Assembly: GCF_022458985.1 (NCBI RefSeq)
Contig: NC_061772.1
Location: 31,048,506 to 31,112,505, forward strand
Source: Mugil cephalus
Taxonomy: Eukaryota > Chordata > Actinopteri > Mugiliformes > Mugilidae
Length of the DNA: 64,000 nt
Direction of reading: 5' to 3'
Both the position numbers and the translations under genes were made by a program. The notes beneath the pieces are model-generated. The model worked only from the letters and a program-made list of their open reading frames with translations. It did not search any database and was not told the DNA's origin. Below are positions 1-22,047 of the stretch, in pieces. Each line of letters opens with the position of its first letter. Within the stretch, counting starts at the first letter, position 1.

Positions 1-164
1 ATAAAAAACTGGTTTAGCCCAGTACAAGATGGCGGCGCCCATCTCCAGCATCCAGCAGAAACCAAACAGATGAAACGGCCAAAATACAAAAATAAAAAAG
101 ATGTGAGAACTAATTCCAGTTGTTTCATTTCCATGAGCTCAGTGATGACGGATTCATTCATTCA

Positions 165-822
165 TTAATTCTTCTTGGAGCTGGAGGTGGTGGAGCTGGA
201 TGTGGTGGAGCTGGAGGTGGTGGAGCTGGATGTGGTGGAGCTGGAGGTGGTGGAGTTGGGTGGTGGAGTTGATTTCAGGAAGTCTTTCAGATGCTTCTGT
301 GCAAACTTTGATTCAGGATCAACGCAGATGACAACATTCCTCTTAGTTGTGACTCTGTAAGAAACACAAGAAGTCGACTGTGAGATCAGCGCCCTCAGAT
401 AAGACGTCCAGACAATGAACCTGAAGAAAGGGACCAACAGAGTCCAGCAGCACTTCCTGTTTCTACTCACATCATGGCTTTGGTTTTGCAGTGGTCTGGG
501 CTCATCTCTACACGCTGCACCATGTGCTTGGGGATGATTACTGGTTTGATATCCTCTGGACAGCAGCTGCTTTTACTCAATAAGTCCACAGCAACTGAAG
601 CTGAAAACACAAACATGCTCATTTAATATGAAGCATGGACATGCTGGAGACAAGAACTCAGAGAGGACACAGAGACATGAACTCAGAGAGGACACAGAGA
701 CATGAACTCATAGAGGACACAGAGACATGAACTCATAGAGGCAGGAGACATTACGGCAGCAACATGACGAAAAGCAGAAAGCAGTCAAGAGTCAGGAGTG
801 TGAGGATCAGTAGTGTCTTCAT
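165..822 (-). CDS. CC chemokine, tandem copy 1 (exon 1 frame in doubt)
   Basis: A secreted CC-family chemokine, expected to act on G-protein-coupled chemokine receptors of leukocytes. Three exons are read on the minus strand: 755-822 (signal peptide beginning MKTLLILTLLTL), 471-600 and 165-354. Exon 2 encodes the adjacent cysteines in KSSCCPEDIKP and the third cysteine in SPDHCKTKAM. Exon 3 encodes VVICVDPESKFAQ (fourth cysteine, CVDP like the usual CADP) and the C-terminal helix KHLKDFLKS. A tail of five TTSSS units ending KKN follows and is probably O-glycosylated. Exons 2 and 3 join cleanly (phase 2). Exon 1 is 68 bases here against 70 in copy 3, and its donor reads GTAATG instead of GTAAGT, so the assembled frame does not join exon 2. 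This is either decay or assembly error. The CC subfamily cannot be assigned by eye. Confidence 0.8.
178..257 (-). repeat. Coding 15-bp minisatellite, TTSSS tail (copy 1, five units)
   Basis: On the plus strand the unit is about GGAGCTGGAKGTGGT repeated. On the coding strand it encodes TTSSS five times after a proline-rich linker (STPPPNS). Copies 2 (8,299-8,350) and 3 (16,479-16,530) have three units. The array stays in frame, so unit loss or gain changes tail length by five residues without breaking the protein. Confidence 0.85.
650..745. repeat. Intron-1 minisatellite of chemokine copy 1
   Basis: About 26-bp units reading roughly GACACAGAGACATGAACTCA with a short spacer, lying just inside intron 1 next to the exon-1 donor. 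The homologous arrays are at 8,746-8,870 in copy 2 and, much longer, at 16,911-17,130 in copy 3. Confidence 0.8.
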
Positions 823-835
823 GCTTCAGGCTGGA

Positions 836-955
836 GTCTGGAGTGGAAGCTGGATGAAGCTGGATGAAGCTGGATGGAGCTGGATGAAGCTGGATGGGAT
901 GAAGCTGTGAAGGGATGAAGCTGGATGAAGCTGGATGAAGGATGAAGTGGTGAAG
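836..955. repeat. 5'UTR minisatellite of chemokine copy 1
   Basis: Units of about 10-12 bp (AGCTGGATGA/G) fill nearly all the space between the predicted transcription start (about 30 bases past the TATA at 1,003-1,008) and the start codon at 820-822. The array is therefore expected to be transcribed as 5'UTR. Equivalent arrays are at 8,960-9,050 and 17,226-17,372. Confidence 0.75.
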
Positions 956-1002
956 CTTCTAAGAGATGGAGTGAGGTGAGCTCTGAGAGGCTCCGTCCTC
1001 TC

Positions 1003-1008
1003 TTTATA
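1003..1008 (-). promoter_or_regulatory. TATA box, chemokine copy 1
   Basis: The minus strand reads CATATAAAGAG about 180 bases upstream of the ATG, in a stretch conserved in all three copies. It fits a TATA-driven inducible cytokine promoter. No NF-kB site was clear by eye. Confidence 0.6.
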
Positions 1009-1190
1009 TGCATGCCCAGCTTGTCTTTCTCGGAGAGAATTATTCTGAGAACAGTCTGCTTCCTCCTTCAGTTCTGCCACTGCTTCTCTTTTCTCTTTCT
1101 CTGGTCATTTTTTGCAGTACAGAGAAAACTCGTACACAGAAAACACATCTGGATACGTTCAGCCTTAAATCAGAAAACTCAACCTGGATC

Positions 1191-1520
1191 ATAGAATAGA
1201 ATTAGAATAGAATAGAATAGAATAGAAGAGACAATAGAATACAAATGCATTAAATGTCATTTCATGGGTAACACAACAAGTAAATACAATGGTATCAGTC
1301 AATTGAAACCATAGATTCAGGTCAGTTCTGTCTACGTCAGGTCATGCCTTGGTTCAGTAGGGTCATGCCTTGTCTATAGGGTCAGTCTGGCATAGGGTCG
1401 GGTCCTGGTTCGCAGGTCCTCTCTGGTTCTACGTCGGTCATGTCTTGGTTCTAGTCAGGGTTAGTCTCGGCTCTACGTCAGGGCAGTCCTCGTTTACTCA
1501 GGTCTAGGTTATCAGTAGTA
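1191..1520. repeat. Upstream AGAAT pentamer array and degraded 27-bp array (copy 1)
   Basis: An AGAAT pentamer run (about 1,191-1,240) is followed by a noisy version of the 27-bp GTCAGGGTCCAGGTCCTCTG-type array that is clean in copy 3 (17,756-18,045). Here the units carry many small deletions, which look more like consensus error in a tandem array than steady divergence, because flanking single-copy sequence matches copies 2 and 3 closely. Confidence 0.6.
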
Positions 1521-1529
1521 GTCAGAGAC

Positions 1530-2600
1530 TCAGTGAATAGAGGATAAAACACGTCCAGATTATGTCTGTCTAAATGTGAAGACGTCCAGCAGAGACATGA
1601 GCTCAGAACGACCCAGGTCCACCAGCTACTGTCTGGACCAGTCTGGACACAAGTGGTCTTCATGGAAGAGCTGCAGCCAAACATCCGTCCCTCTGACATG
1701 GAAACAAGACCAAGAGACTCCACCATGGACCAGAACCAGAACCAGAACCAGGACCTGGGCTCAGAACCATCTGGACTGATGAGTCAACACCAGTCACTTC
1801 ACTCTGAGCTTTGATTTAAACACTCGACTTATTTATATGACTTTACTCAGATGAAGAAAGAGTCACGTTGGAGTTTACACTCATTTAATTCATTCATTAG
1901 TTTCTTGTTCTTTGGTTCTGATATCCTGACGTCTGGAGTCGTGTTTTTAGTCCTGAGCTGAGCTCATGAAGTCATTTCTCAGTCAATGAATGAACTGAGG
2001 TGTTTCCTCTTTCACTTCCTCGTCTGTTCACGTGAATTAATCTGCTGAATGCTTTTTCTTCGAGGCTTAAACGTTGTGGTTTTTCAGATGAACGGATCTG
2101 AAGTTTGGATCCAACTTCTGCATCAAGTTCAATGAAAATGTTGAACTGTGCTTTTAGGTTTCAGGTCAATCTGCTCATTTCTAGTCGCTCATTAGCATTC
2201 CTCTCTGCTAATGTGCTACTTCTTAGCAGCTTGTTAGCACGCTACTCTCCTAATATGCTACTTCTTAGCAGCTTGTTAGCATCCTACTATGCTAATCACC
2301 AGGGAGGACATCAGTGTGATCACCACTGACAAGTCTTCTCTTGCATTTAAAAGGGTTTATTACAAGAAAGAACAATGTCAAAAACTCAGTTGTTGAATCC
2401 TCTCTGTCGTTCAGCTGCTACAGTCGCCTTATATGTGATTCTTATCCCCAAGAACCACCATTCATGAACAAGGAAAACTAGTTGGTTTTACGAGCTGACA
2501 TCTGGTAAATAACCTTTTAACCTTTAGATTTTGTACAGATTTCACCAACAGGAAAAACACACAACCAGCATATCCTGGATTAATCCCTTATCCTGGTTTC
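1530..2600. other. Chemokine-unit spacer, no gene recognised (copy 1)
   Basis: The stretch between the upstream array and the LINE fragment contains a short CAGAAC hexamer run (about 1,732-1,752) and TTAGC-type repeats (about 2,165-2,300, with CTACTTCTTAGCAGCTTGTT repeated). No supported coding exon is seen. The equivalents are 9,720-10,774 and 18,060-19,117. Confidence 0.6.
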
Positions 2601-3325
2601 ATGCCACAGCCCCAGACTTATTCATCCATGGCCGTGATCTGGAACTATCTCTGCAGCCGCTCCCCGAACTCTCTTCATTTGAATGCCTTGCATTTAAATG
2701 TAAGTTCCCTTCCCCTGTGCTGCTCCTCCTCATCTACCGACCATCCAAACCAAACTCGTCATTCATCTCTGAAAATCAAATCTTCTCACAACTGTACATC
2801 ATCGAAGGACACACCCTGGACTTGGTCATCACAAACTCTGCCCCTCTCACCAACCTGCAGGTACATGACCTTGGTGTGTCAGATCACACCAAACCCATCA
2901 TCATCCATAACCAGCATCACCTCCTCTGGCTCCAGTATCACTCTGTCATCAACAGTCACAAATCAAATCAACTCTGAATCCCACGTCTACCACCTGGTCC
3001 GTGCCTTTGTCTCCTCCAGACTAGATTACTGCAACTTCTCATCGGGATCCCCAGCAAGAGCCTGCAGAGGCTCCAGTACATCCAAACCTCTGCAGCCAGG
3101 ATCCTGGTGAGAGTGCGTAAACATGAGCACATCATCCCCATCCTCCGCTCACTCCCCTGGCTTCCTGTTTCCACCAGGATTCCACCACCACCTCAAAGAA
3201 CACATCACGCTCCCTTCCAGAACCAGACCTAAGACCACGGGAGATAGGCCCACAACCCACCGACTGTTTCCAAAAACATTTCTTTTTAGTACAATTTTTG
3301 ATTCTCCATCTAAGAAGTTTTAAAC
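2601..3325 (+). mobile_element. LINE fragment A (L2/Rex-like), copy 1
   Basis: A non-LTR retrotransposon remnant. An endonuclease-like piece (PVLLLLIYRPSKPNSSF, then HTLDLVITNSAPLTNLQ and VSDHTKP) is followed after an internal deletion by a reverse-transcriptase C-terminal piece (RAFVSSRLDYCN, then RVRKHEHIIPILRSL in another frame). It is frameshifted and inactive. It lies between two inverted ~35-bp arms (2,564-2,600 and 3,718-3,754). The equivalents are 10,774-11,500 and 19,117-19,803. The family assignment beyond L2/Rex-like is not secure. Confidence 0.75.
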
Positions 3326-3789
3326 TTTCTAAACCTTCTTATCTTGTTTTCTATTTGAAACATGATGATGGATAAAAGCTCTAATGTAAGAAACTCCACC
3401 ACTGAGACTGGAAATGAAAAGAAAGTTTGGGCCTGATGGGAAGACGTTTCTTGTCCTGAACGTGGCAGTGTTTCTTAGAACATCCTCCAACACATTTCAC
3501 TTTTAAAGACATCGGAAGAAAAACACTCTGCACTTCCTTATTCCACGAGAAACATGAAACCTCATCACATTCTACTTCCTGCTAACTCCTGGTTCACGTT
3601 CCTGTTTCCTTCATTAAATGTTTTTCTATGATTCAATATAAAGTAATTCAGTCATTTAAGAATAAATAAAGACATCAGCAGGAGGTAAAGCTCATAGAGA
3701 CCAGAGGGCTGCTGCACAAAACCAGGATAAGGGATTAATCCTGGATATGTTGGTTATCCTGGATGAACTTATCCATGATGACGACTCTT

Positions 3790-4365
3790 CCATAGTCAGA
3801 CGAGGAGGTGGTGGAGGACCACAGGAGGAACCGGAGGAGTCCTGTCCCAGTCACCATCCAGGGTGAGGAGGTGGAGGCTGTGGACTCGTACAAGAACCTT
3901 GGGGTCCACATCAACATAAACTGGTCACATGATGCAGACGCCCCCTACAGGAAAGGACAGAGCAGGACGATCTTCCTGAGGAGACTGACTCCTCTAGACC
4001 TTCTACCAGTCTATGGTGGCCAGTGGGCTCTCCTTCCCTGTGGTGTGATGGGGGGGAATAAACTAACTGGGGAGGAAAGCTGCTCGGTGCTGGGACTGAA
4101 CTTGGACTGGTTGGAAACAGTGGCTGAGAGGAGGACGAAGGACAAAATCTGTTTAATGTTGGACAATCGCTCTCATTCTCTGATGTTCATCTCCTGCATT
4201 CAGAGGATCATTCACCCCAGAGCAGAACTGAAGCTTCAGACGCTGCTTAGTGGCCACAGACATCAGCTCTGACCTCACTGAGCCCACATGTAGACGCACA
4301 ACTGCTGCCACTTTGTGTACTGTACTTGTAAATGCCATTGTATTTGCCTTTGATAATAATTCATA
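3790..4365 (+). mobile_element. LINE fragment B (RT C-terminal region), copy 1
   Basis: The translated remnant includes VEAVDSYKNLGVHI, YRKGQSR and a TVAERRTKDKICLMLDN stretch, typical of the end of the reverse transcriptase and C-terminal part of fish non-LTR elements. It is broken by frameshifts. The BEL/Pao LTR begins directly downstream. Copies are at 11,965-12,545 and 20,266-20,925, and the third keeps a 3' tail ending with AATTTCCCCAATGGGATCAA. Confidence 0.75.
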
Positions 4366-4372
4366 AATATGT

Positions 4373-6605
4373 TGTTGGACAGGATAAAATGTTAAAAATG
4401 TTAATTCATGTGTTTTAAGAAGAAGGGGTTAATTTAATTGTATTTACATAATTTGTTTAATGGCTGCAGTTGTAATCAGTTAATTGTGTTGCTACGCAGC
4501 TAAAGTGATAACGCTGCATGCAAAGCATGGCCTGAGATGTGTTAAGGACGTCTCTCATGACAAGCGGCCAACAAGGTATTTTTCGTTACATTCGTGATGT
4601 ATTTTGTTTATATTTACACAGCGCAATTTTTATGCTTTGTTATTTTCTGTGCAGTCATTATTGCAAACTGATATATTTTATTGTTTATGTCTTAGTTCTC
4701 ACGGCATGAAAGCAAGAGGGCGAGATGGATGGAGAAAAGCCTGATAAATGCCAGTTTCAAAGAACCCGATCCGTGTCTGCTCCACACGGGAGGAGAGGAA
4801 GAGACCGGTGTAACATTAAGTGAAGTCCATACATGTGCTGCTGCATTATGGTGATTAGACTGAGTCTGAAGCGTAACTTTTTAAAGTGAAGCCAGGAAAC
4901 TCTCCGCCTGCCTAAGTAAAGTGGAGAGAGACCCGAACTACACTAAGCAAAAGTTTTGGGATAAGGAAAGAGTGGATGTTGATAAGTGATTTTTGTTAGA
5001 GGTTAAGGGGAATCATTTTATATTGTGTACTTGATGCATCTGTAATTTAAACCCATTATCTTTTCAATGAATGTTCAGAGTATTTGTGTTTGTGATTTCA
5101 CTGGGTTTAAATTGACACTAGCTTTAAGTTTGATAAGTTGCTAATGCTAAAACAGTCATCTGATACGATTTGTGTTTACAAATCAAGTCAAGCATAATCA
5201 CTTTGTCTACATACAGTGATTAAAGAATCTCTCTTAAACCTACTGTAAGTCAGTTTAACACAGATAACAACATATACACACATAACAGAGGCGCTGAAGA
5301 TTTCTCAAAATGTCTGACACAAACACTGAGTCCTGCCATAAAGATGTAGGATCACCTGCTGAACCTGAAGCCACAAACACACAATCAGCAGAAGCACAAA
5401 TTCTGCGAAGAAGTCGAAGAAACCGAACTTGGACAGAAAAGGGACAGGAACTTAAAGAGAAAAGGCTGAAGACTTTGCAGCATAGATACAAAATCATCTA
5501 TGAGAAATGGAGGTACCATGCAAGGGTAGGCAAAGAAATACTGTCTGATACGGCCTCAGAAGATGATTTAAAGTCATTGATTGAAGATATTAAAGTTGCT
5601 TGCTCTAATGTTAAGACTATCTATGAAGAGTTACGTAGAGTTCAAGCACCAGACCCAGATGTGAGGCGTAGAGTCGACACATGTGTATCCCTCTCCGATC
5701 ATATTATACAAAGGGCAGTGAGAAATCTGACAGGACACCCAGAGCAGGAAAAGGCAGAACCCTGGCCTGACGTTGGATCAATCCTAGATTCCACAACTTC
5801 TTCATCAAAGTCTCACAAGTCAAGGTATGGTTCTGTCCACTCCAGCATCTTCTCTGTAAAAAGAAATGAGGCTCTCAAGAAGTGCTGGCGGTGTTGGATG
5901 AACAAGATAAGGAAGCAACAGAACTGCAAAGATTAGAAGCTGAAGATAAACATCAGCTGCCACAGTTCTAGTATGAGAAGCTAGCTAGACAACAAGCGAT
6001 CCAAGAAAGGCGCAGAAAGACTGAACGCCTAGAGGAAGTAAAGAAACTGAATGCTGCAATGGCTCGAACAAAGGTCTATGCCCAAGTTGAGAACTGCAGC
6101 ACGCTTCAACTGCTGAATGATGCAGAATCAGGAGCGGACTTTAAAGTTCCTTTAAAGTTCCTGACCCCAATGGTTCAACATTCATACCACAACCTCATCC
6201 AGTCATAACTCAGGCCCCTAGTCCCTCAAGTCTGCCACCTACACCCCTAGCTCCAGTGATTCCAACATTCCGACGACTCAAACTCAGAGAAATTCAGACA
6301 TTGCTTTGGTCAGTGTGCTAGCTGAAGCTATTAATGCTAATCGTCTTCCTACACCAGAACCTGCAGTGTTTACTGGAGACTCCTTGAAGTTTAATGATTG
6401 GCGATTGTCATTTGAAACATTAATTCACAGGAAAAACATTTCCAAGAATGAAAAATTGTTCTACCTAAGACAATATCGAGGTGACCCAGCAAAGAAGGCG
6501 GTGGAAGGTTTCTTCCTACTAGGGACAGAGACAGCTTATGACTCAGCCTGGCAGCTATTGGAAAAACGCTTTGGAGACCCTTTCATAGTAGGAAAGTCCT
6601 TCAGA
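4373..6605 (+). mobile_element. BEL/Pao LTR retrotransposon fossil, 5' part, copy 1
   Basis: A fossil of a BEL/Pao-family LTR retrotransposon. A probable 5' LTR of about 900 bases (4,373-5,272) begins TGTTG and ends CAACA. It is followed by the gag region, with an N-terminal coiled, charged part and a DUF1759-type segment around 6,330-6,600. Protease, reverse transcriptase, integrase and the 3' LTR are absent, because the element stops where a TAGC minisatellite begins. It is a broken remnant. It sits in a LINE tail and is shared with copy 2, so it inserted before that duplication. Confidence 0.8.
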
Positions 6606-6890
6606 GTAGCTCCCGGCTAATAGCAGCTCCTCCTAGCTTCCCAGCTAATAGTAGCTCCCAGCTAATAGCAGCTCCTCCTAGCTTCTCAGCTAATAGTAGC
6701 TCCCAGCTAATAGCAGCTCCTCCTAGCTTCTCAGCTAATAGTAGCTTCCAGCTAATAGTAGCTCCTCCTAGCCTCCCAACTTATAGTAGCTCCTCCTAGC
6801 CTCCCAGCTAATAGCAGCTCCTCCTAGCCTCCCAGCTAATAGCAGCTCCTCCTAGCCTCCCAGCTAATAGTAGCTCCTCCTAGCTAGCTT
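6606..6890. repeat. TAGC-rich 28-bp minisatellite, copy 1
   Basis: Tandem units reading about AGCTCCTCCTAGCCTCCCAG plus CTAATAG abut the truncated BEL/Pao remnant. The unit is the reverse complement of the large array at 53,090-54,135. The copy-2 equivalent is 14,786-15,065. Scattered relics of the same motif lie at 7,800-7,910 and 41,500-41,570. Confidence 0.85.
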
Positions 6891-8125
6891 TGTCGCTGTA
6901 AATTCTCCTGTGACATCAATTCAATCTTAAACAAAGCTTGAAACATTGAGACGTTTTAATATTTTTATTATTTCTCAGCTTGTGTTCAGTTGCTGTGACA
7001 TTTTCAAACCAGTATTTTTTCTATTTCTTCTATTTCCTGCTGAAGTGAACATTCATCTCTGTGTAATCGTCGGTGTCTGGAGACAGATGGAGTGTTTTCA
7101 AGAGTTTCTCTCGTCTCTGTAGAACTGGTGTTGGCACGACTACTTTACATCAAACAATGGAAGCATTGAAGAGTCCAACAGGCTTTTATTCTCGTCCTCC
7201 TCTATCACCTCTTATTTCCCTCCTCCCTGCACAGCCTCTCCATCTTACACAGAAACATCAAGTGAAGAATCCTGGTGGATGACGTTGTTCTTCAGAGCCT
7301 CATCAGGTCTGAAATGACTCTAATCAGCTGTGGTGCTTCATGCTGCTGATTATAAACACTAATCTGAGTCAGATGTTGATCTAGAAACCTAAATATCTGA
7401 TTTACTGCCTTACAGATGTCATTTCATTGGCAAACATTTATTTTAGCTGTAGACTGTATCTCCTTCTGGTTTTCTCTTTCTATTTCCTGTTAAAAACTGT
7501 TTCACCTTGTTCCAGTTAACCTGGTTTGGTTTCATTCTTTTCAGCTCAACCTCTCATGTGCGACTCTACACTTATTTTTTTCATTCTGTCAAACTGTATA
7601 AACACATTGACCTAAAACCAGACTAAATCCATCAAATCCCGGTGGGAAAAAGTTAGAAAACCACAAACGTGTAGAACCAACCATTTTAGAACTAAGAATG
7701 TAAATCTAACCATTGACACATCATGTCCTGATTGGTTGATGGATGCATGTTTCCACCAATAGGAAAGAGGCTGTCATGTTGTGTTTCTTTCTATCATGTG
7801 TAGCTGGCTAGCTCTCTTCCTACTACTCTGCTAATATGCTACTTCCCAGGAGCTTCCTAGCCTCCAAGCTAATAGCATCTCCTTCTAGCGTCCTAGCTAC
7901 CCACACTGCAGGGAGTTCAAAGAGAGCACGCTCATGATTCATTTATTCATTTATTTATTTTATTTAACAGGGACAAAACAAACGACATCACCAGAGACGA
8001 CTGGGAGGACGTCATGTCTTTAAGACTTGTTGCTTCTTTGTCCCTGGCCAGACTTTTAAATACAATGAGACAATCACACAACTACGGTGAATCTATTTAC
8101 ACACTCGGCACAAAAACAAAGATAA
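6891..8125. other. Unit 3' spacer without recognisable gene (copy 1)
   Basis: About 1.2 kb of AT-rich sequence with no coding exon I can support. It contains TAGC-motif relics (7,800-7,910) and an ATTT-rich run (7,930-7,975), then runs into the 3' flank of the next chemokine gene. The equivalent in copy 2 is 15,066-16,305. Confidence 0.5.
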
Positions 8126-8289
8126 ATAAAAAACTGGTTTAGCCCAGTACAAGATGGCGGCGCCCATCTCCAGCATCCAGCAGAAACCAAACAGATGAAA
8201 CGGCCAAAATACGAAAATAAAAAAGATGTGAGAACTAATTCCAGTTGTTTCATTTCCATGAGCTCAGTGATGATGGATTCATTCATTCA

Positions 8290-8945
8290 TTAATTCTTCT
8301 TGGAGCTGGATGTGGTGGAGCTGGATGTGGTGGAGCTGGATGTGGTGGAGTTGGGTGGTGGAGTTGATTTCAGGAAGTCTTTCAGATGCTTCTGTGCAAA
8401 CTTTGATTCAGGATCAACGCAGATGACAACATTCTTCTTAGTTGTGACTCTGTAAGAAACACAAGAAGTCGACTGTGAGATCAGCGCCCTCAGATAAGAC
8501 GTCCAGACAATGAACCTGAAGAAAGGGACCAACAGAGTCCAGCAGCACTTCCTGTTTCTACTCACATCATGGCTTTGGTTTTGCAGTGGTCTGGGCTCAT
8601 CTCTACACGCTGCACCATGTGCTTGGGGATGATTACTGGTTTGATATCCTCTGGACAGCAGCTGCTTTTACTCAATAAGTCCACAGCAACTGAAGCTGAA
8701 AACACAAACATGCTCATTTAATATGAAGCATGGACAGCTGGAGACACAGAACTCAGAGAGGACACAGAGACATGAACTCATGAGAGGTGAACCAGCAGAG
8801 ACATGAACTCATAGAGGACACAGAGACATGAACTCATAGAGGACACAGAGACATGACCGAGAACAGAGACACTTACGGCAGCAACATGACGAAGAAGCAG
8901 AAAGCAGTCAAGAGTCAGGAGTGTGAGGATCAGTAGTGTCTTCAT
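8290..8945 (-). CDS. CC chemokine, tandem copy 2 (exon 1 frame in doubt)
   Basis: Same architecture as copy 1: exons 8,877-8,945, 8,566-8,695 and 8,290-8,449 on the minus strand. The mature part has CC, C and C in the same positions, with one substitution relative to copy 1 (TTKKN for TTKRN), and the tail has three TTSSS units before KKN. The exon-1 donor is a good GTAAGT, but the exon is 69 bases, one shorter than in copy 3, so joining it to exon 2 gives an early stop. Exons 2 and 3 are intact. Whether this copy is expressed, or the missing base is an assembly error, cannot be settled here. Its TATA is at 9,109-9,114. Confidence 0.8.
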
Positions 8946-8959
8946 GCTTCAGGCTGGAG

Positions 8960-9050
8960 TCTGGTGAGCTGGATGGAGCTGGATGAAGCTGGATGAGCTG
9001 AGGCTGGTGAAGCTGGGATTGAAGCTGGATGGAGCTGGATGAAGCTTTCT
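8960..9050. repeat. 5'UTR minisatellite of chemokine copy 2
   Basis: A shorter, more irregular version of the AGCTGGATGA array, again between TATA and ATG. Its length differs from both other copies. Confidence 0.65.
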
Positions 9051-9108
9051 CTATGAAGGAGATGGAAGCCTTTGGATGGATATGAGCTCTGAGAGGCTCC
9101 GTCCTCTC

Positions 9109-9114
9109 TTTATA
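9109..9114 (-). promoter_or_regulatory. TATA box, chemokine copy 2
   Basis: The minus strand reads CATATAAAGAG, identical to copies 1 and 3, upstream of the 5'UTR array. Confidence 0.6.
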
Positions 9115-9297
9115 TGCATGCCCAGCTTGTCTTTCTCGGAGAGAATTATTCTGAGAACAGTCTGCTTCCTCCTTCAGTTCTGCCACTGCTTCTCTTTTCT
9201 CTTTCTCTGGTCATTTTTTGCAGTACAGAGAAAACTCGTACACAGAAAACACATCTGGATACGTTCAGCCTTAAATCAGAAAACTCAACCTGGATCA

Positions 9298-9700
9298 TAG
9301 AATAGAATAGAATAGAATAGAATAGAATAGAATAATAGAATAGAAGAGAACAGAATAGAATACAACATGCATTAAATGTCATTTCATGGGTAACACAACA
9401 AGTAAATACAATGGTATCCAGTTCAAATTGAAACCATAGAATGTCAGGGTCCAGGTCCTCTGGTTCTACGTCAGGGTCTAGATCCTCTGGTTCTACGTCA
9501 GGGTCCATGTCCTCTGGTTCTACGTCAGGGTCAGGTCTCTGGTTCTACGTCAGGGTCAGTCTCTGGTCTCGTCAGGGTCTAGATCCTCTGGTTCTACGTC
9601 AGGGTCCATGTCCTCTGGTTCTACTCAGGGTCCAGGTCTCTGGTCTACTCAGGGTCAGGTCCTCTGGTTCTAGTCGGTCAGGTCCGGTCTAGTCAGGTCC
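9298..9700. repeat. Upstream AGAAT array and 27-bp minisatellite, copy 2
   Basis: AGAAT pentamers (9,298-9,362) are followed by 27-bp units containing CTACGTCAGGGTC (about 9,440-9,700). The first units are regular and the later ones lose bases irregularly. This is the counterpart of the cleaner array of copy 3. Confidence 0.75.
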
Positions 9701-10773
9701 AGTAGATCAGAGACTCAGTGGAAACTCAGAGGATGAAAAGACGTCCAGATTATTTGTCTTCTAAATGTGAAGACGTCCAGCAGAGACATGAGCTCAGAAC
9801 TGACCCAGGTCCACCAGCTACTGTCTGGACCAGTCTGGACACAAGTGGTCTTCATGGAAGAGCTGCAGCCAAACATCCGTCCCTCTGACATGGAAACAAG
9901 ACCAAGAGACTCCACCATGGACCAGAACCAGAACCAGAACCAGGACCTGGGCTCAAAACCATCTGGACTGATGAGTCAACACCAGTCACTTCACTCTGAG
10001 CTTTGATTTAAACACTCGACTTATTTATTATGACTTTACTCAGATGAAGAAAGAGTCACGTTGGAGTTTACACTCATTTAATTCATTCATTAGTTTCTTG
10101 TTCTTTGGTTCTGATATCCTGACGTCTGGAGTCGTGTTTTTAGTCCTGAGCTGAGCTCATGAAGTCATTTCTCAGTCAATGAATGAACTGAGGTGTTTCC
10201 TCTTTCACTTCCTCGTCTGTTCACGTGAATTAATCTGCTGAATGCTTTTTCTTCGAGGCTTAAACGTTGTGGTTTTTCAGATGAACGGATCTGAAGTTTG
10301 GATCCAACTTTTGCATCAAGTTCAATGAAAATGTTGAACTGTGCTTTTAGGTTTCAGGTCAATCTGCTCATTTCTAGTCGCTCATTAGCATTCCTCTCTG
10401 CTAATGTGCTACTTCTTAGCAGCTTGTTAGCACGCTACTCTCCTAATATGCTACTTCTTAGCAGCTTGTTAGCATCCTACTATGCTAATCACCAGGGAGG
10501 ACATCAGTGTGATCACCACTGACAAGTCTTCTCTTGCATTTAAAAGGGTTTATTACAAGAAAGAACAATGTCAAAAACTGTACGCCTTTATATGTGATTC
10601 TTATCCCCAAGAACCACCATTCATGAACAAGGAAAACTTATCTCCTGACGTCCAGTTGGTTTTACGAGCTGACATCTGGTAAATAACCTTTTAACCTTTA
10701 GATTTTGTACACATTTCACCAACAGGAAAAACACACAACCAACATATCCTGGATTAATCCCTTATCCTGGTTT

Positions 10774-11500
10774 CATGCCACGGCCCCAGACTTATTCATC
10801 CATGGCCGTGATCTGGAACTATCTCTGCAGCCGCTCCCCGAACTCTCTTCATTTGAATGCCTTGCATTTAAATGTAAGTTCCCTTCCCCTGTGCTGCTCC
10901 TCCTCATCTACCGACCATCCAAACCAAACTCGTCATTCATCTCTGAGAAATCAAATCTTCTCACAACTGTACATCATCGAAGGACACACCCTGGACTTGG
11001 TCATCACAAACTCTGCCCCTCTCACCAACCTGCAGGTACATGACCTTGGTGTGTCAGATCACACCAAACCCTATCATCATCCATAACCAGCATCACCTCC
11101 TCTGGCTCCAGTATCACTCTGTCATCAACAGTCACAAATCAAATCAACTCTGAATCCCACGTCTACCACCTGGTCCGTGCCTTTGTCTCCTCCAGACTAG
11201 ATTACTGCAACTTCTCATCGGGATCCCCAGCAAGAGCCTGCAGAGGCTCCAGTACATCCAAACCTCTGCAGCCAGGATCCTGGTGAGAGTGCGTAAACAT
11301 GAGCACATCATCCCCATCCTCCGCTCACTCCCCTGGCTTCCTGTTTCCACCAGGATTCCACCACCACCTCAAAGAACACATCACGCTCCCTTCCAGAACC
11401 AGACCTAAGACCACGGGAGATAGGCCCACAACCCACCGACTGTTTCCAAAAACATTTCTTTTTAGTACAATTTTTGATTCTCCATCTAAGAAGTTTTAAA
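10774..11500 (+). mobile_element. LINE fragment A, copy 2
   Basis: Duplicate of the copy-1 fragment with the same internal deletion between the endonuclease-like and reverse-transcriptase-like pieces. It is flanked by inverted ~35-bp arms near 10,738-10,774 and 11,896-11,932. Confidence 0.75.
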
Positions 11501-11964
11501 CTTTCTAAACCTTCTTATCTTGTTTTCTATTTGAAACATGATGATGGATAAAAGCTCTAATGTAAGAAACTCCACCACTGAGACTGGAAATGAAAAGAAA
11601 GTTTGGGCCTGATGGGAAGACGTTTCTTGTCCTGAACGTGGCAGTGTTTCTTAGAACATCCTCCAACACATTTCACTTTTAAAGACATCGGAAGAAAAAC
11701 ACTCTGCACTTCCTTATTCCACGAGAAACATGAAACCTCATCACATTCTACTTCCTGCTAACTCCTGGTTCACGTTCCTGTTTCCTTCATTAAATGTTTT
11801 TCTATGATTCAATATAAAGTAATTCAGTCATTTAAGAATAAATACAGACATCAGCAGGAGGTAAAGCTCAATAGAGACCAGAGGGCTGCTGCACAAAACC
11901 AGGATAAGGGATTAATCCTGGATATGTTGGTTATCCTGGATGAACTTATCCATGATGACGACTC

Positions 11965-12545
11965 TTCCATAGTCAGACGAGGAGGTGGTGGAGGACCACA
12001 GGAGGAACCGGAGGAGTCCTGTCCCAGTCACCATCCAGGGTGAGGAGGTGGAGGCTGTGGACTCGTACAAGAACCTTGGGGTCCACATCAACTATAAACT
12101 GGTCACATGATGCAGACGCCCCCTACAGGAAAGGACAGAGCAGGACGATCTTCCTGAGGAGACTGACTCCTCTAGACCTTCTACCAGTCTATGGTGGCCA
12201 GTGGGCTCTCTTCCCTGTGGTGTGATGGGGGGGAATAAACTAACTGGGGAGGAAAGCTGCTCGGTGCTGGGACTGAACTTGGACTGGTTGGAAACAGTGG
12301 CTGAGAGGAGGACGAAGGACAAAATCTGTTTAATGTTGGACAATCGCTCTCATTCTCTGATGTTCATCTCCTGCATTCAGAGGATCATTCACCCCAGAGC
12401 AGAACTGAAGCTTCAGACGCTGCTTAGTGGCCACAGACATCAGCTCTGACCTCACTGAGCCCACATGTAGACGCACAACTGCTGCCACTTTGTGTACTGT
12501 ACTTGTAAATGCCATTGTATTTGCCTTTGATAATAATTCATAAAT
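11965..12545 (+). mobile_element. LINE fragment B, copy 2
   Basis: Duplicate of the copy-1 reverse-transcriptase C-terminal fragment, again ending at the left end of the BEL/Pao LTR. Confidence 0.75.
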
Positions 12546-12549
12546 ATGT

Positions 12550-14785
12550 TGTTGGACAGGATAAAATGTTAAAAATGTTAATTCATGTGTTTAAGAAGAA
12601 GGGGTTAATTTAATTGTATTTACATAATTTGTTTAATGGCTGCAGTTGTAATCAGTTAATTGTGTTGCTACAGCAGCTAAAGTGATAACGCTGCATGCAA
12701 AGCATGGCCTGAGATGTGTTAAGGACGTCTCTCATGACAAGCGGCCAACAAGGTATTTTTCGTTACATTCGTGATGTATTTTGTTTATATTTACACAGCG
12801 CAATTTTTATGCTTTGTTATTTTCTGTGCAGTCATTATTGCAAACTGATATATTTTATTGTTTATGTCTTAGTTCTCACGGCATGAAAGCAAGAGGGCGA
12901 GATGGATGGAGAAAAGCCTGATAAATGCCAGTTTCAAAGAACCCGATCCGTGTCTGCTCCACACGGGAGGAGAGGAAGAGACCGGTGTAACATTAAGTGA
13001 AGTCCATACATGTGCTGCTGCATTATGGTGATTAGACTGAGTCTGAAGCGTAACTTTTTAAAGTGAGGCCAGGAAACTCTCCCCGCCTGCCTAAGTAAAG
13101 TGAGAGAGAGACCCGAACTACACTAAGCAAAAGTTTTGGGATAAGGAAAGAGTGGATGTTGATAAGTGATTTTTGTTAGAGGTTAAGGGGAATCATTTTA
13201 TATTGTGTACTTGATGCATCTGTAATTTAAACCCATTATCTTTTCAATGAATGTTCAGAGTATTTGTGTTTGTGATTTCACTGGGTTTAAATTGACACTA
13301 GCTTTAAGTTTGATAAGTTGCTAATGCTAAAACAGTCATCTGATACGATTTGTGTTTACAAATCAAGTCAAGCATAATCACTTTGTCTACATACAGTGAT
13401 TAAAGAATCTCTCTTAAACCTACTGTAACTCAGTTTAACACAGATAACAACATATACACACATAACAGAGGCGCTGAAGATTTCTCAAAATGTCTGACAC
13501 AAACACTGAGTCCTGCCATAAAGATGTAGGATCACCTGCTGAACCTGAAGCCACAAACACACAATCAGCAGAAGCACAAATTCTGCGAAGAAGTCGAAGA
13601 AACCGAACTTGGACAGAAAAGGGACAGGAACTTAAAGAGAAAAGGCTGAAGACTTTGCAGCATAGATACAAAATCATCTATGAGAAATGGAGGGTACCAT
13701 GCAAGGGTAGGCAAAGAAATACTGTCTGATACGGCCTCAGAAGATGATTTAAAAGTCATTGATTGAAGATATTAAAGTTGCTTGCTCTAATGTTAAGACT
13801 ATCTATGAAGAGTTACGTAGAGTTCAAGCACCAGACCCAGATGTGAGGCGTAGAGTCGACACATGTGTATCCCTCTCCGATCATATTATACAAAGGGCAG
13901 TGAGAAATCTGACAGGACACCCAGAGCAGGAAAAGGCAGAACCCTGGCCTGACGTTGGATCAATCCTAGATTCCACAAGTTCTTCATCAAAGTCTCACAA
14001 GTCAAGGTATGGTTCTGTCCACTCCAGCATCTTCTCTGTAAAAAGAAATGAGGCTCTCAAGAAGTGCTGGCGGTGTTGGATGAACAAGATAAGGAAGCAA
14101 CAGAACTGCAAAGATTAGAAGCTGAAGATAAACATCAGCTGCCACAGTTCTAGTATGAGAAGCTAGCTAGACAACAAGCGATCCAAGAAAGGCGCAGAAA
14201 GATTGAACGCCTAGAGGAAGTAAAGAAACTGAATGCTGCAATGGCTCGAACAAAGGTCTATGCCCAAGTTGAGAACTGCAGCACGCTTCAACTGCTGAAT
14301 GATGCCGAATCAGGAGCAGACTTTAAAGTTCCTTTAAAGTTCCTGACCCCAATGGTTCAACATTCATACCACAACCTCATCCAGTCATAACTCAGGCCCC
14401 GAGTCCCTCAAGTCTGCCACCTACACCCCTAGCTCCAGTGATTCCAACATTCCCGACTCAAACTCAGAGAAATTCAGACATTGCTTTGGTCAGTGTGCTA
14501 GCTGAAGCTATTAATGCTAATCGTCTTCCTACACCAGAACCTGCAGTGTTTACTGGAGACTCCTTGAAGTTTAATGATTGGCGATTGTCATTTGAAACAT
14601 TAATTCACAGGAAAAACATTTCCAAGAATGAAAAATTGTTCTACCTAAGACAATATCTAGGTGACCCAGCAAAGAAGGCGGTGGAAGGTTTCTTCCTACT
14701 AGGGACAGAGACAGCTTATGACTCAGCCTGGCAGCTATTGGAAAAACGCCTTGGAGACCCTTTCATAGTAGGAAAGTCCTTCAGA
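12550..14785 (+). mobile_element. BEL/Pao LTR retrotransposon fossil, 5' part, copy 2
   Basis: Second copy of the same fossil: a probable LTR at 12,550-13,452 and then a gag remnant to about 14,785, truncated at the same point as copy 1 by the TAGC minisatellite. It is broken. Its presence at the same site in both units shows it was carried along by the segmental duplication and is not a new insertion. Confidence 0.8.
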
Positions 14786-15065
14786 GTAGCTCCCGGCTAA
14801 TAGCGGCTCCTCCTAGCTTCCCAGCTAATAGTAGCTCCCAGCTAATAGCAGCTCCTCCTAGCTTCTCAGCTAATAGTAGCTCCCAGCTAATAGCAGCTCC
14901 TCCTAGCTTCTCAGCTAATAGTAGCTTCCAGCTAATAGTAGCTCCTCCTAGCCTCCCAACTTATAGTAGCTCCTCCTAGCCTCCCAGCTAATAGCAGCTC
15001 CTCCTAGCCTCCCAGCTAATAGCAGCTCCTCCTAGCCTCCCAGCTAATAGTAGCTCCTCCTAGCT
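14786..15065. repeat. TAGC-rich 28-bp minisatellite, copy 2
   Basis: Same array as 6,606-6,890 with nearly the same unit order, which supports a recent duplication of the whole unit. Confidence 0.85.
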
Positions 15066-16305
15066 AGCTTTGTCGCTGTAAATTCTCCTGTGACATCAAT
15101 TCAATCTTAAACAAAGCTTGAAACATTGAGACGTTTTAATATTTTTATTATTTTCTCAGCTTGTGTTCAGTTGCTGTGACATTTTCAAACCAGTATTTTT
15201 TCTATTTCTTCTATTTCCTGCTGAAGTGAACATTCATCTCTGTGTAATCGTCGGTGTCTGGAGACAGATGGAGTGTTTTCAAGAGTTTCTCTCGTCTCTG
15301 TAGAACTGGTGTTGGCACGACTACTTTACATCAAACAATGGAAGCATTGAAGAGTCCAACAGGCTTTTATTCTCGTCCTCCTCTATCACCTCTTATTTCC
15401 CTCCTCCCTGCACAGCCTCTCCATCTTACACAGAAACATCAAGTGAAGAATCCTGGTGGATGACGTTGTTCTTCAGAGCCTCATCAGGTCTGAAATGACT
15501 CTAATCAGCTGTGGTGCTTCATGCTGCTGATTATAAACACTAATCTGAGTCAGATGTTGATCTAGAAACCTAAATATCTGATTTACTGCCTTACAGATGT
15601 CATTTCATTGGCAAACATTATATTTAGCTGTAGACTGTATCTCCTTCTGGTTTTCTCTTTCTATTTCCTGTTAAAAACTGTTTCACCTTGTTCCAGCTAC
15701 CCTGGTTTGGTTTCATTCTTTTCAGCTCAACCTCTCATGTGCGACTCTACACTTATTTTTTTCATTCTGTCAAACTGTATAAACACATTGACCTAAAACC
15801 AGACTAAATCCATCAAATCCCGGTGGGAAAAAGTTAGAAAACCACAAACGTGTAGAACCAACCATTTTAGAACTAAGAATGTAAATCTAACCATTGACAC
15901 ATCATGTCCTGATTGGTTGATGGATGCATGTTTCCACCAATAGGAAAGAGGCTGTCATGTTGTGTTTCTTTCTATCATGTGTAGCTGGCTAGCTCTCTCC
16001 TACTACTCTGCTAATATGCTACTTCCCAGGAGCTTCCTAGCCTCCAAGCTAATAGCATCTCCTTCTAGCGTCCTAGCTACCCACACTGCAGGGAGTTCAA
16101 AGAGAGCACGCTCATGATTCATTTATTCATTTATTTATTTCATTTAACAGGGACAAAACAAACGACATCACCAGAGACGACTGGGAGGACGTCATGTCTT
16201 TAAGACTTGTTGCTTCTTTGTCCCTGGCCAGACTTTTAAATACAATGAGACAATCACACAACTACGGTGAATCTATTTACACACTCGGCACAAAAACAAA
16301 GATAA
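15066..16305. other. Unit 3' spacer without recognisable gene (copy 2)
   Basis: Counterpart of 6,891-8,125. No supported coding exon is seen. Confidence 0.5.
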
Positions 16306-16469
16306 ATAAAAAACTGGTTTAGCCCAGTACAAGATGGCGGCGCCCATCTCCAGCATCCAGCAGAAACCAAACAGATGAAACGGCCAAAATACGAAAATAA
16401 AAAAGATGTGAGAACTAATTCCAGTTGTTTCATTTCCATGAGCTCAGTGATGATGGATTCATTCATTCA

Positions 16470-17213
16470 TTAATTCTTCTTGGAGCTGGATGTGGTGGAG
16501 CTGGATGTGGTGGAGCTGGATGTGGTGGAGTTGGGTGGTGGAGTTGATTTCAGGAAGTCTTTCAGATGCTTCTGTGCAAACTTTGATTCAGGATCAACGC
16601 AGATGACAACATTCTTCTTAGTTGTGACTCTGTAAGAAACACAAGAAGTCGACTGTGAGATCAGCGCCCTCAGATAAGACGTCCAGACAATGAACCTGAA
16701 GAAAGGGACCAACAGCACTTCCTGTTTCTACTCACATCATGGCTTTGGTTTTGCAGTGGTCTGGGCTCATCTCTACACGCTGCACCATGTGCTTGGGGAT
16801 GATTACTGGTTTGATATCCTCTGGACAGCAGCTGCTTTTACTCAATAAGTCCACAGCAACTGAAGCTGAAAACACAAACATGCTCATTTAATATGAAGCA
16901 TGGACAGGCTGGAGACATGAACTCAGAGAGGACACAGAGACATGAACTCAGAGAGGACACAGAGACATGAACTCATGGAGGACACAGAGACATGAACTCA
17001 TGGAGGACACAGAGACATGAACTCAGAGAGGACACAGAGACATGAACTCATAGAGGACAGAGACATGAACTCATAGAGGACAGAGACATGAACTCATAGA
17101 GGACACAGAGACATGAACTCAGAGAGGACAGAGAGACACTTACCGGCAGCAACATGACGAAGAAGCAGAAAGCAGTCAAGAGTCAGGAGTGTGAGGATCA
17201 GTAGTGTCTTCAT
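16470..17213 (-). CDS. CC chemokine, tandem copy 3 (intact frame)
   Basis: The only copy whose three exons join without conflict: 17,144-17,213 (70 bases, phase 1, donor GTAAGT), 16,736-16,865 (130 bases, phase 2) and 16,470-16,629. The product is about 119 residues. A signal peptide (MKTLLILTLLTLDCFLLL, cleavage likely near RHVAAAS) is followed by the chemokine fold with SSCCPEDIKPVIIP, the third cysteine about 24 residues on, and VVICVDPESK. The helix KHLKDFLKS leads to a PPPNS linker, three TTSSS units and KKN. Four cysteines give the two standard disulfides. The Ser/Thr tail resembles a mucin-like stalk, but no transmembrane segment follows, so a secreted product is expected. Intron 2 is 10 bases shorter than in copies 1 and 2. 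Confidence 0.9.
16911..17130. repeat. Intron-1 minisatellite of chemokine copy 3 (expanded)
   Basis: About nine units of a ~26-bp repeat (GACACAGAGACATGAACTCA core), roughly twice the length of the arrays in copies 1 and 2, placed just downstream of the exon-1 donor. Confidence 0.85.
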
Positions 17214-17225
17214 GCTTCAGGCTGG

Positions 17226-17372
17226 AGTCTGGGTGGAGCTGGATGGAGCTGGATGAAGCTGGATGGAGCTGGGTGAAGCTGGATGGAGCTGGGTGAAGCT
17301 GGATGGAGCTGGATGAAGCTGGATGAAGCTGGATGAAGCTGGATGAAGCTGGATGAAGCTGGGTGAAGCTCT
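17226..17372. repeat. 5'UTR minisatellite of chemokine copy 3 (longest)
   Basis: A regular run of AGCTGGATGA/AGCTGGGTGA units, fully between the TATA (17,421-17,426) and the ATG (17,211-17,213). It is the longest of the three 5'UTR arrays. Confidence 0.8.
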
Positions 17373-17420
17373 CTAATGAGATGGAGCTGGAGGATGAGCT
17401 CTGAGAGGCTCCGTCCTCTC

Positions 17421-17426
17421 TTTATA
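17421..17426 (-). promoter_or_regulatory. TATA box, chemokine copy 3
   Basis: The minus strand reads CATATAAAGAG. A start about 30 bases downstream would give a 5'UTR of about 180 bases dominated by the minisatellite. Confidence 0.6.
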
Positions 17427-17610
17427 TGCATGCCCAGCTTGTCTTTCTCGGAGAGAATTATTCTGAGAACAGTCTGCTTCCTCCTTCAGTTCTGCCACTG
17501 CTTCTCTTTTCTCTTTCTCTGGTCATTTTTTGCAGTACAGAGAAAACTCGTACACAGAAAACACATCTGGATACGTTCAGCCTTAAATCAGAAAACTCAA
17601 CCTGGATCAT

Positions 17611-17675
17611 AGAATAGAATAGAATAGAATAGAATAGAATAGAATAGAATAGAATAGAAGAGAACAGAATAGAAT
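17611..17675. repeat. AGAAT pentamer microsatellite, copy 3
   Basis: About ten AGAAT units about 190 bases upstream of the chemokine TATA. Shorter or interrupted equivalents lie in copies 1 and 2. Confidence 0.85.
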
Positions 17676-17755
17676 ACAACATGCATTAAATGTCATTTCA
17701 TGGGTAACACAACAAGTAAATACAATGGTATCCAGTTCAAAATTGAAACCATAGA

Positions 17756-18045
17756 ATGTCAGGGTCCAGGTCCTCTGGTTCTACGTCAGGGTCCATGTCC
17801 TCTGGTTCTACGTCAGGGTCCATGTCCTCTGGTTCTACGTCAGGGTCCATGTCCTCTGGTTCTACGTCAGGGTCCATGTTCTCTGGCTCTACGTCAGGGT
17901 CCAGGTCCTCTGGTTCTACGTCAGGGTCTAGGTTCTCTGGCTCTACGTCAGGGTCCAGGTCCTCTGGTTCTACGTCAGGGTCTAGGTCCTCTGGTTCTAT
18001 GTCAGGGTCCAGGTCCTCTGGCTCTACGTCAGGGTCCAGTAGGAT
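17756..18045. repeat. 27-bp minisatellite with CRE-like half sites, copy 3
   Basis: About ten clean 27-bp units, each with CTACGTCAGGGTC followed by CAGGTCCTCTGG-type sequence. On the minus (gene) strand each unit presents TGACGTAG, a CRE/ATF-like half site. The array lies about 330-620 bases upstream of the chemokine TATA. Confidence 0.85.
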
Positions 18046-19116
18046 CAGAGACTCAGTGGAAACTCAGAGGATGAAAAACACGTCCAGATTATTTGTCTTC
18101 TAAATGTGAAGACGTCCAGCAGAGACATGAGCTCAGAACTGACCCAGGTCCACCAGCTACTGTCTGGACCAGTCTGGACACAAGTGGTCTTCATGGAAGA
18201 GCTGCAGCCAAACATCCGTCCCTCTGACATGGAAACAAGACCAAGAGACTCCACCATGGACCAGAACCAGAACCAGAACCAGAACCAGGACCTGGGCTCA
18301 GAACCATCTGGACTGATGAGTCAACACCAGTCACTTCACTCTGAGCTTTGATTTAAACACTCGACTTATTTATTATGACTTTACTCAGATGAAGAAAGAG
18401 TCACGTTGGAGTTTACACTCATTTAATTCATTCATTAGTTTCTTGTTCTTTGGTTCTGATATCCTGACGTCTGGAGTCGTGTTTTTAGTCCTGAGCTGAG
18501 CTCATGAAGTCATTTCTCAGTCAATGAATGAACTGAGGTGTTTCCTCTTTCACTTCCTCGTCTGTTCACGTGAATTAATCTGCTGAATGCTTTTTCTTCG
18601 AGGCTTAAAACGTTGTGGTTTTTCAGATGAACGGATCTGAAGTTTGGATCCAACTTTTGCATCAAGTTCAATGAAAATGTTGAACTGTGCTTTTAGGTTT
18701 CAGGTCAATCTGCTCATTTCTAGTAGCTCATTAGCATTCCTCTCTGCTAATGTGCTACTTCTTTGCAGCTTGTTAGCACGCTACTCTCCTAATATGCTAC
18801 TTCTTAGCAGCTTGTTAGCATCCTACTATGCTAATCACCAGGGAGGACATCAGTGTGATCACCACTGACAAGTCTTCTCTTGCATTTAAAAGGGTTTATT
18901 ACAAGAAAGAACAATGTCAAAAACTGTCGCCTTATATGTGATTCTTATCCCCAAGAACCACCATTCATGAACAAGGAAAACTTATCTCCTGACGTCCAGT
19001 TGGTTTTACGAGCTGACATCTGGTAAATAACCTTTTAACCTTTAGATTTTGTACACATTTCACCAACAGGAAAAACACACAACCAACATATCCTGGATTA
19101 ATCCTTATCCTGGTTT

Positions 19117-19803
19117 CATGCCACGGCCCCAGACTTATTCATCCATGGCCGTGATCTGGAACTATCTCTGCAGCCGCTCCCCGAACTCTCTTCATTTGAA
19201 TGCCTTGCATTTAAATGTAAGTTCCCTTCCCCTGTGCTGCTCCTCCTCATCTACCGACCATCCAAACCAAACTCGTCATTCATCTCTGAGAAATCAAATC
19301 TTCTCACAACTGTACATCATCGAAGGACACACCCTGGACTTGGTCATCACAAACTCTGCCCCTCTCACCAACCTGCAGGTACATGACCTTGGTGTGTCAG
19401 ATCACACCAAACCCTATCATCATCCATAACCAGCATCACCTCCTCTGGCTCCAGTATCACTCTGTCATCAACAGTCACAAATCAAATCAACTCTGAATCC
19501 CACGTCTACCACCTGGTCCGTGCCTTTGTCTCCTCCAGACTAGATTACTGCAACTTCTCATCGGGATCCCCAGCAAGAGCCTGCAGAGGCTCCAGTACAT
19601 CCAAACCTCATCATCCCCATCCTCCGCTCACTCCCCTGGCTTCCTGTTTCCACCAGGATTCCACCACCACCTCAAAGAACACATCACGCTCCCTTCCAGA
19701 ACCAGACCTAAGACCACGGGAGATAGACCCACAACCCACCGACTATTTCCAAAAACATTTCTTTTTAGTACAATTTTTGATTCTCCATCTAAGAAGTTTT
19801 AAA
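19117..19803 (+). mobile_element. LINE fragment A, copy 3
   Basis: Third copy of the L2/Rex-like remnant, with a further short deletion (near 19,605) compared with copies 1 and 2. Inverted arms lie near 19,083-19,117 and 20,199-20,235. Confidence 0.75.
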
Positions 19804-20265
19804 CTTTCTAAACCTTCTTATCTTGTTTTCTATTTGAAACATGATGATGGATAAAAGCTCTAATGTAAGAAACTCCACCACTGAGACTGGAAATGAAAAG
19901 AAAGTTTGGGCCTGACGGGAAGACGTTTCTTGTCCTGAACGTGGCAGTGTTTCTTAGAACATCCTCCAACACATTTCACTTTTAAAGACATCGGAAGAAA
20001 AACACTCTACACTTCCTTATTCCACGAGAAACATGAAACCTCATCACATTCTACTTCCTGCTAACTCCTGGTTCACGTTCCTGTTTCCTTCATTAAATGT
20101 TTTTCTATGATTCAATATAAAGTAATTCAGTCATTTAAGAATAAATAAAGACATCAGCAGGAGGTAAAGCTCCATAGAGACCAGAGGGCTGCTGCACAAA
20201 ACCAGGATAAGGGATTAATCCTGGATATGTTGGTTATCCTGGATGAACTTATCCATGATGACGAC

Positions 20266-20925
20266 TCTTCCATAGTCAGACGAGGAGGTGGTGGAGGACC
20301 ACAGGAGGAACCGGAGGAGTCCTGTCCCAGTCACCATCCAGGGTGAGGAGGTGGAGGCTGTGGACTCGTACAAGAACCTTGGGGTCCACATCAACTATAA
20401 ACTGGTCACATGATGCAGACGCCCCCTACAGGAAAGGACAGAGCAGGACGATCTTCCTGAGGAGACTGACTCCTCTAGACCTTCTACCAGTCTATGGTGG
20501 CCAGTGGGCTCTCCTTCCCTGTGGTGTGATGGGGGGGAATAAACTAACTGGGGAGGAAAGCTGCTCGGTGCTGGGACTGAACTTGGACTGGTTGGAAACA
20601 GTGGCTGAGAGGAGGACGAAGGACAAAATCTGTTTAATGTTGGACAATCGCTCTCATTCTCTGATGTTCATCTCCTGCATTCAGAGGATCATTCACCCCA
20701 GAGCAGAAGTGAAGCTTCAGACGCTGCTTAGTGGCCACAGATATCAGCTCTGACCTCACTGAGCCCACATGTAGACGCACAACTACTACTACTACTACTG
20801 TACTTTTTGTTGCCTGTTGTCCTATTTAATTTATTTAATTGTTTCATTTCTTTCTGGTCGCTGTTGTGCTGCTGTAACATTTGAATTTCCCCAATGGGAT
20901 CAATAAAGTACTGATCTGATCTTAT
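20266..20925 (+). mobile_element. LINE fragment B with 3' tail, copy 3
   Basis: The same reverse-transcriptase C-terminal remnant as in copies 1 and 2, but here the tail continues past 20,784 into a different 3' sequence, with an ACT trinucleotide run and a terminal AATTTCCCCAATGGGATCAA motif followed by ATAAAGTA. The segmental duplication breakpoint coincides with this LINE tail. Confidence 0.7.
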
Positions 20926-21665: not shown

Positions 21666-22047
21666 AAACTTCATCTCCCAGAATCCCAGAGGGCCGAAGG
21701 GTTCATTCACTTTAAGGAAAGTAATTTCCCTGCAGCTTCTTCTTCTTCTTTGTCTGAATTTGAAGTCGTGGAACATAAAGTCGGTTCAGAGAAACGACAC
21801 GAGGAAGTGAAACAACGACCAGAAAAAGCTTCCATGTGAACATAAGCGTCCTTTCACTTTTAAACACAGCCCTGAGTTCTACTGCTGCTTTTCTTCCAAA
21901 CGTTTCTCCATCAATCAGGATTTATTTCTTCCTGGTAGACCATGGTTCTCCACTGTCCTTCCAGTCTTTAATAAAGGTCTTAACCCAGTAGTTTAGTAGT
22001 TTCTAGATGTTTTCTCTGCTTGATGCAGCCAATGATTTGACCCTTCT

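Follow-up and report, generated by a model that had tools for sequence, protein, structure and literature searches.

Six head-to-tail CC-chemokine genes in Mugil cephalus: a tandem array probably built by unequal exchange

Organization of the array

We analyzed a 64,000-nucleotide (nt) stretch of the Mugil cephalus genome (positions 31,048,506-31,112,505 of contig NC_061772.1, hereafter the window), which carries tandemly repeated CC-chemokine genes, together with 70 kb of upstream and 20 kb of downstream flank. Genome-wide searches covered the 634.8-Mb assembly in 24 contigs, and negative coordinates follow the window numbering upstream of position 1. Comparing the window with itself revealed direct repeats at an offset of ~8.13-8.18 kb, in which 2425-8856 matched 10583-17020 at 98.9% identity, and a further direct repeat of 3130-4303 and 19609-20784 at 99.3% identity. 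Repeats so long and so identical are not due to chance, and they bear out the original prediction of a tandem amplification in ~8.15-kb units, the coordinates of which were right. The same prediction placed the array at 1-20784, in two full units and a partial one, and proposed counting the units by comparison with the upstream contig. Matching unit E against the flanks gave six head-to-tail copies, A to F, which start at -21144, -11772, -7526, 1, 8126 and 16306, and a left stub (~-22921 to -21145) with just the end of a unit. The two full units and the partial one are thus real, but the array does not start at position 1: the window contains its right-hand end with copies D, E and F (8125, 8180 and 4479 nt), while A, B, C and the stub lie upstream. 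The units in the window, recognized by self-comparison, unit matching and the gene model, are:

1-8125, gene on the minus strand: unit D, fourth of six
8126-16305, minus strand: unit E, fifth of six
16306-20784, minus strand: unit F, sixth and at the right edge, which stops at the point equivalent to D position 4303 and has a complete gene

Copy B is short (4.2 kb), with no long match to unit positions ~2322 to 7875. A 381-base gene probe hit six places in the assembly (6 candidates, 6 scored), all within the array on one chromosome. A protein search of the genome returned 19 matches, 17 of them in the array and the other two at E values of 0.4 and 0.7. There was no N in the window and its 90 kb of flank (154 kb).

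The units also carry repeated sequence other than the gene:

3130-4303, no strand assigned: segment common to D, E, F and A (0.1-0.85% substitutions) that on inspection resembles a retroposon
4400-5250, plus strand: dispersed-repeat probe from unit D, with full-length matches also in A, C and E
6222-6620, plus strand: gag-like open reading frame (ORF) fragment with DUF1759 (E 2.5e-10) in unit D, the only copy tested

The ORF pieces tested from the first segment had no Pfam match, and DUF1759 is a domain linked to retroelements. Among the 29 matches listed for the 851-base dispersed-repeat probe, 4 were in the array and 25 elsewhere in the genome, where they spanned at most the first 380 of the 851 bases. 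The probe found no match in F, and this copy ends near the starting point of the repeat; the original right edge of the array is therefore probably preserved in F. The left stub starts inside a GCTA-rich minisatellite of ~28 bp that may have helped the duplication. This minisatellite occurs within the unit (6605-6884) and also at 53105-54135, at about -44,600 and about +80,000.

The chemokine gene and its copies

The gene of the array has three exons on the minus strand:

754-822, minus strand: unit D exon 1 as assembled, with one base missing inside and one at the donor, within a burst of small indels
471-600, minus strand: unit D exon 2, with the CC motif and the third cysteine
165-354, minus strand: unit D exon 3, with the longest Ser/Thr-rich tail of the copies
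8876-8945, minus strand: unit E exon 1 as assembled, donor one base short (a GT donor puts the exon end at 8877), within an indel burst
8566-8695, minus strand: unit E exon 2, from the gene model
8290-8449, minus strand: unit E exon 3, from the gene model
17144-17213, minus strand: unit F exon 1, intact, with donor GTAAGTG
16736-16865, minus strand: unit F exon 2, from the gene model
16470-16629, minus strand: unit F exon 3, which completes a 119-amino-acid protein

The protein of copy F, the only one scanned, matched PF00048 over residues 34-91 (33.5 bits against a cut-off of 21.3, E 4.9e-8). Its nearest solved chain, a weak match, was CCL7 (E 7.2e-6), followed by an XCL1 ancestor and eotaxin-3 among the best 60 of 99 matches. 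These results confirm the predicted CC-chemokine identity. All six copies share the cysteine pattern SSCC...DHC...VIC, that is, the CC motif and two further cysteines, and the N-terminus MKTLLILTLLTLDCFLLL looks like a signal peptide. An open three-exon frame with GT donors and AG acceptors was present in four of the six copies (A, B, C and F), each with a tail that closes at a stop; D and E failed at exon 1 as assembled. The expectation of a complete three-exon gene in every unit of the window therefore held for F and not for D and E, in which exon-1 bases are missing from the assembly. A regular expression for CC chemokines, run over stop-to-stop ORFs, found no true exon. The array locus was not listed in a genome search with PF00048, probably because single exons score too weakly, although the DNA and protein searches did find it. 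The PF00048 search listed six chemokine-domain matches within 20 kb on another chromosome (G000:C7:18916391-18936318), probably a second chemokine cluster.

A TATA box, TATAAAGA, lies upstream of the gene in copies B to F:

1001-1008, minus strand: TATA box TATAAAGA, unit D
9107-9114, minus strand: TATA box, unit E
17419-17426, minus strand: TATA box TATAAAGA, unit F

Each of units D, E and F thus has its own TATA box and upstream tandem arrays, as predicted. Copy A lacks the shared promoter core and has ~1.0 kb of unrelated sequence instead (about -20,020 to -19,010); the TATA search in this copy reached only some 285 nt upstream of the start codon.

Exon 3 closes with a coding repeat:

176-268, minus strand: 15-bp coding minisatellite of the tail in unit D, 6.3 copies

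All three frames of this repeat are open in all six copies. A repeat poor in T and G is often free of stops, and open frames alone are unsurprising; the notable part is the change of frame between copies. The frame in use encodes a Ser/Thr-rich tail in B, D, E and F (three repeats in B, E and F, five in D), a Pro/His/Ala-rich one in A, and one of His, Gln and Leu in C. Between the start of the unit and exon 2, 11 substitutions and four indels distinguish A from F; one of these indels, 2 nt long and in the tail, alters the frame. The same comparison of C with F gives 7 substitutions and four indels, and two of the indels are 2 nt long and in the tail. We found no indel burst in A or C over this stretch when compared with F, which strengthens a tentative reading: the tail may be a frame-tolerant coding minisatellite, in which small length changes switched the frame between paralogues and gave one core three chemically different tails. 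An error is possible behind the frame change in C, because no other copy scores as high for indels in the tail array (7% in C) and the two changes in C lie 9 nt apart. The Ser/Thr-rich tail of B, D, E and F is possibly O-glycosylated. Literature searches on minisatellite or frameshift tails in tandem fish chemokines, and on mucin-like C-terminal extensions of teleost CC chemokines, found nothing relevant to the former and nothing on the latter.

Divergence and mosaicism among the copies

We calculated distances per segment from substitutions only. D, E and F are 0-0.9% apart. A-C differ from D-F by 0.3-3.2% per segment when the noisy post-minisatellite stretch of C (about 21%) is left out, and by 1.6-3.0% in the gene and upstream segments. 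The claim that the units are nearly identical thus applies to D, E and F and less well to A-C, which are up to about 3% from them. Judged by these distances, A, B and C are the older copies and D, E and F the younger ones.

Which copy is closest to E depends on the position in the unit. E and F differ at 0/565 positions of the gene segment, and D and E at 5/575; in the 2458-3140 segment, the counts are 0/681 for E-F and 3/665 for D-E; in the 3181-4355 segment, they are 1/1173 for D-E and 8/1175 for E-F. D, E and F varied at 73 sites. We dropped 53 that fell in the noisy stretch and, of the remaining 20, left out 3 that grouped D with F. The 17 sites tested make E a mosaic of D and F, with sites shared by E and F mainly near the gene and those shared by D and E farther out (permutation p 0.007); two exceptions interrupt an otherwise clean, single switch. 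Such a mosaic fits gene conversion, unequal exchange or chimeric assembly. A and B are 0.88% apart upstream and 2.27% in the gene. Comparing A with B, and either of them with the remaining copies, gives 6-8 nonsynonymous and 0-1 synonymous changes in the core of exons 2 and 3, counts too small for a claim of selection. Several of the nonsynonymous changes in A and B sit just before the CC motif, in the stretch that is the signalling part of chemokines.

Small indels cluster in bursts

We counted substitutions and indels of 1-3 nt pairwise between copies. D and E differ by 12 substitutions and 76 indels within 800 nt (D 601-1000 and 1201-1600) and by 23 and 19 in the other 7287 nt. E and F show 11 substitutions and 43 indels within 600 nt, against 15 and 7 across 3752 nt; for C and E the counts are 98 and 197 within 2400 nt, against 20 and 8 across 2991 nt. 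Fisher p values for the D/E, E/F and C/E bursts (1.8e-6, 1.3e-4 and 1.2e-4) are descriptive only, because the burst limits were picked from the same data as tested. In D and E the bursts sit mainly on minisatellites. Where Tandem Repeats Finder (TRF) found the 10-bp array, its indels amounted to 0-2% in A, B, C and F versus 19% in D and 17% in E. Those of the 5-bp array were 0% in A, B and F versus 12% in D and 6% in E, and those of the 27-bp array were 0% in A, B and F and 7% in E, while TRF did not recognize this array as such in D. The burst in copy C extends to sequence outside the minisatellite, and 2.2 kb of this copy (-2390 to -190) are dense in 1-3 nt indels, likely an unpolished consensus.

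Exon 1 of D and E lies within such bursts. Both copies lack the same base at the exon-1 donor, a loss that shifts the frame into exon 2 if a GT donor is used, and D lacks another base inside the exon. Exon 1 and its donor are intact in A, B, C and F, so that the units described as full, D and E, are the defective ones as assembled and the gene of the partial unit F is intact.

Origin of the array

We consider it probable that the six CC-chemokine genes form a lineage-specific tandem array that grew through repeated unequal exchange between its head-to-tail repeats. Four points weigh against this reading or its details. The limits of the indel bursts were picked from the very data on which they were then tested; the 25-bp intron array has 0% indels in D (13% in E), and the repeats of D are thus not all damaged-looking; D and E lack the same donor base, and a real inherited mutation is conceivable; and, because copy A has lost the shared promoter core, expression of every copy need not be assumed.

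The extra copies could instead be false duplications, from haplotypes or mis-joined reads, at a true locus with one or two genes. The consensus appears to be of low quality locally in C, D and E, the sequence of E resembles a D/F chimera, and the 0-0.9% divergence per segment between D and E falls within the range of ordinary heterozygosity. However, A, B and C are up to about 3% from D-F and have their own insertions and deletions, one unit frame is common to all copies, and the 154 kb contain no N; for these reasons, it is unlikely that the whole array is an assembly artefact. The exact count of D/E/F-type copies, by contrast, rests on an assembly with local signs of consensus error. Very recent duplication alone could also account for the homogeneity and would be in keeping with the low divergence throughout D, E and F, but we find it rather improbable, as the closest relative of E switches along the unit and A and B are closer upstream than in the gene. 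A recent expansion or gene conversion had been proposed from the window, and the D/E/F part is indeed recent; homogenization by exchange is supported but not proven, and an assembly chimera could give the same pattern.

A related question is whether D and E are genuine pseudogenes that both inherited one deletion at the exon-1 donor and so read into exon 2 out of frame. The same base is missing in both, and they are each other's nearest relatives in the 3181-4355 segment, with 1 substitution in 1173. Yet the shared loss decides nothing, because ~0.9 coincidences are expected by chance in 400 nt (16 and 23 small indels, if errors are independent). The lesions fall inside indel bursts, exons 2 and 3 of both copies are open, with the core of D identical to that of C and the core of E to that of F, and in the gene segment E groups with the intact F (0/565 substitutions). 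We suspect consensus error in D, E and C because the small indels cluster rather than being evenly spread. For the single-base defects of D and E, errors in the consensus are a likelier cause than true null mutations, and inherited pseudogenes are a somewhat doubtful explanation.

If repeated unequal exchange between head-to-tail units built the array, as we favor, each intact copy would make a secreted CC chemokine, driven in B to F by the copy's own TATA promoter. The dose of ligand may be higher with such an array, and the copies would be free to diverge just ahead of the CC motif and in the C-terminal tail.

Neighboring genes and relation to the CCL17/CCL22 region

To the right of the array, 145 of the 226 ORFs of at least 60 amino acids overlapping 20785-64000 were scanned and gave matches to ATP_bind_1, IL17, stathmin, Flavodoxin_2 and ATG8, with the ATG8 exon closest to GABARAPL2. 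On the left side, 111 of 153 filtered ORFs were scanned, with matches to cyclin, BTB and ion channel, ribosomal L11 N-terminal and reverse transcriptase domains. A PDB search with a 503-amino-acid upstream ORF was empty at E 1e-30. IL-17-like exons lie near the array at 43547-43894, 63126-63482 and 75168-75494, the last outside the window; the one at 43547-43894 is nearest to IL-17A, and the other two were recognized by eye. Two large 20/43-bp minisatellites with one common unit (22046-23075 and 40744-41410) lie ~18 kb apart in opposite orientation.

In humans, the mammalian CCL17/CCL22 (CX3CL1) region lies on 16q. The locus might be its fish counterpart, an assignment that we regard as possible rather than probable. 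The neighbors include a GABARAPL2-like exon, IL-17 exons and an NQO-type Flavodoxin_2 match, and GABARAPL2, NQO1 and IL17C lie on human 16q. However, the stathmin neighbor and the GPN-type ATP_bind_1 neighbor have no obvious fit to 16q. The top protein matches are CCL7, the XCL1 ancestor and eotaxin-3, with no CCL17 or CCL22 among the best 60 of 99. A fish CCL17/22 group is described in an excerpt of PMC4690017.

Comparison with known chemokine clusters

CCL3L/CCL4L are reportedly variable in copy number in human and macaque (PMC2621346 and others). They resemble the array in being extra, highly similar CC chemokine genes and offer a model for dose variation; they differ in that the chemokine here is another one and the array is known from one assembly. 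According to excerpts of the literature, chemokine gene copy number varies in humans (PMC2416438), CC chemokines have expanded in tandem in zebrafish and, it is suggested, in catfish (PMC2416438, PMC4690017), and lineage-specific tandem chemokines are described too (PMC3568907). The zebrafish and probably the catfish clusters are, as far as these excerpts describe them, like the present array in having arisen by local tandem duplication after species divergence, with some near-identical copies (PMC2416438, PMC4690017). Unlike them, the array combines one gene per regular ~8-kb unit, a retroelement fragment, six copies and a coding minisatellite tail. Tandem CC-chemokine expansion itself is already known, and the six-copy array adds one more case.

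The exon-1 defects of D and E carry a caution, in that a draft consensus cannot show whether genes are intact in arrays of this sort. If confirmed by reads, the array would be a compact example of fish immune genes multiplying and re-mixing, would offer a testable connection between copy number and ligand dose, and would present one chemokine core with a natural series of different tails.

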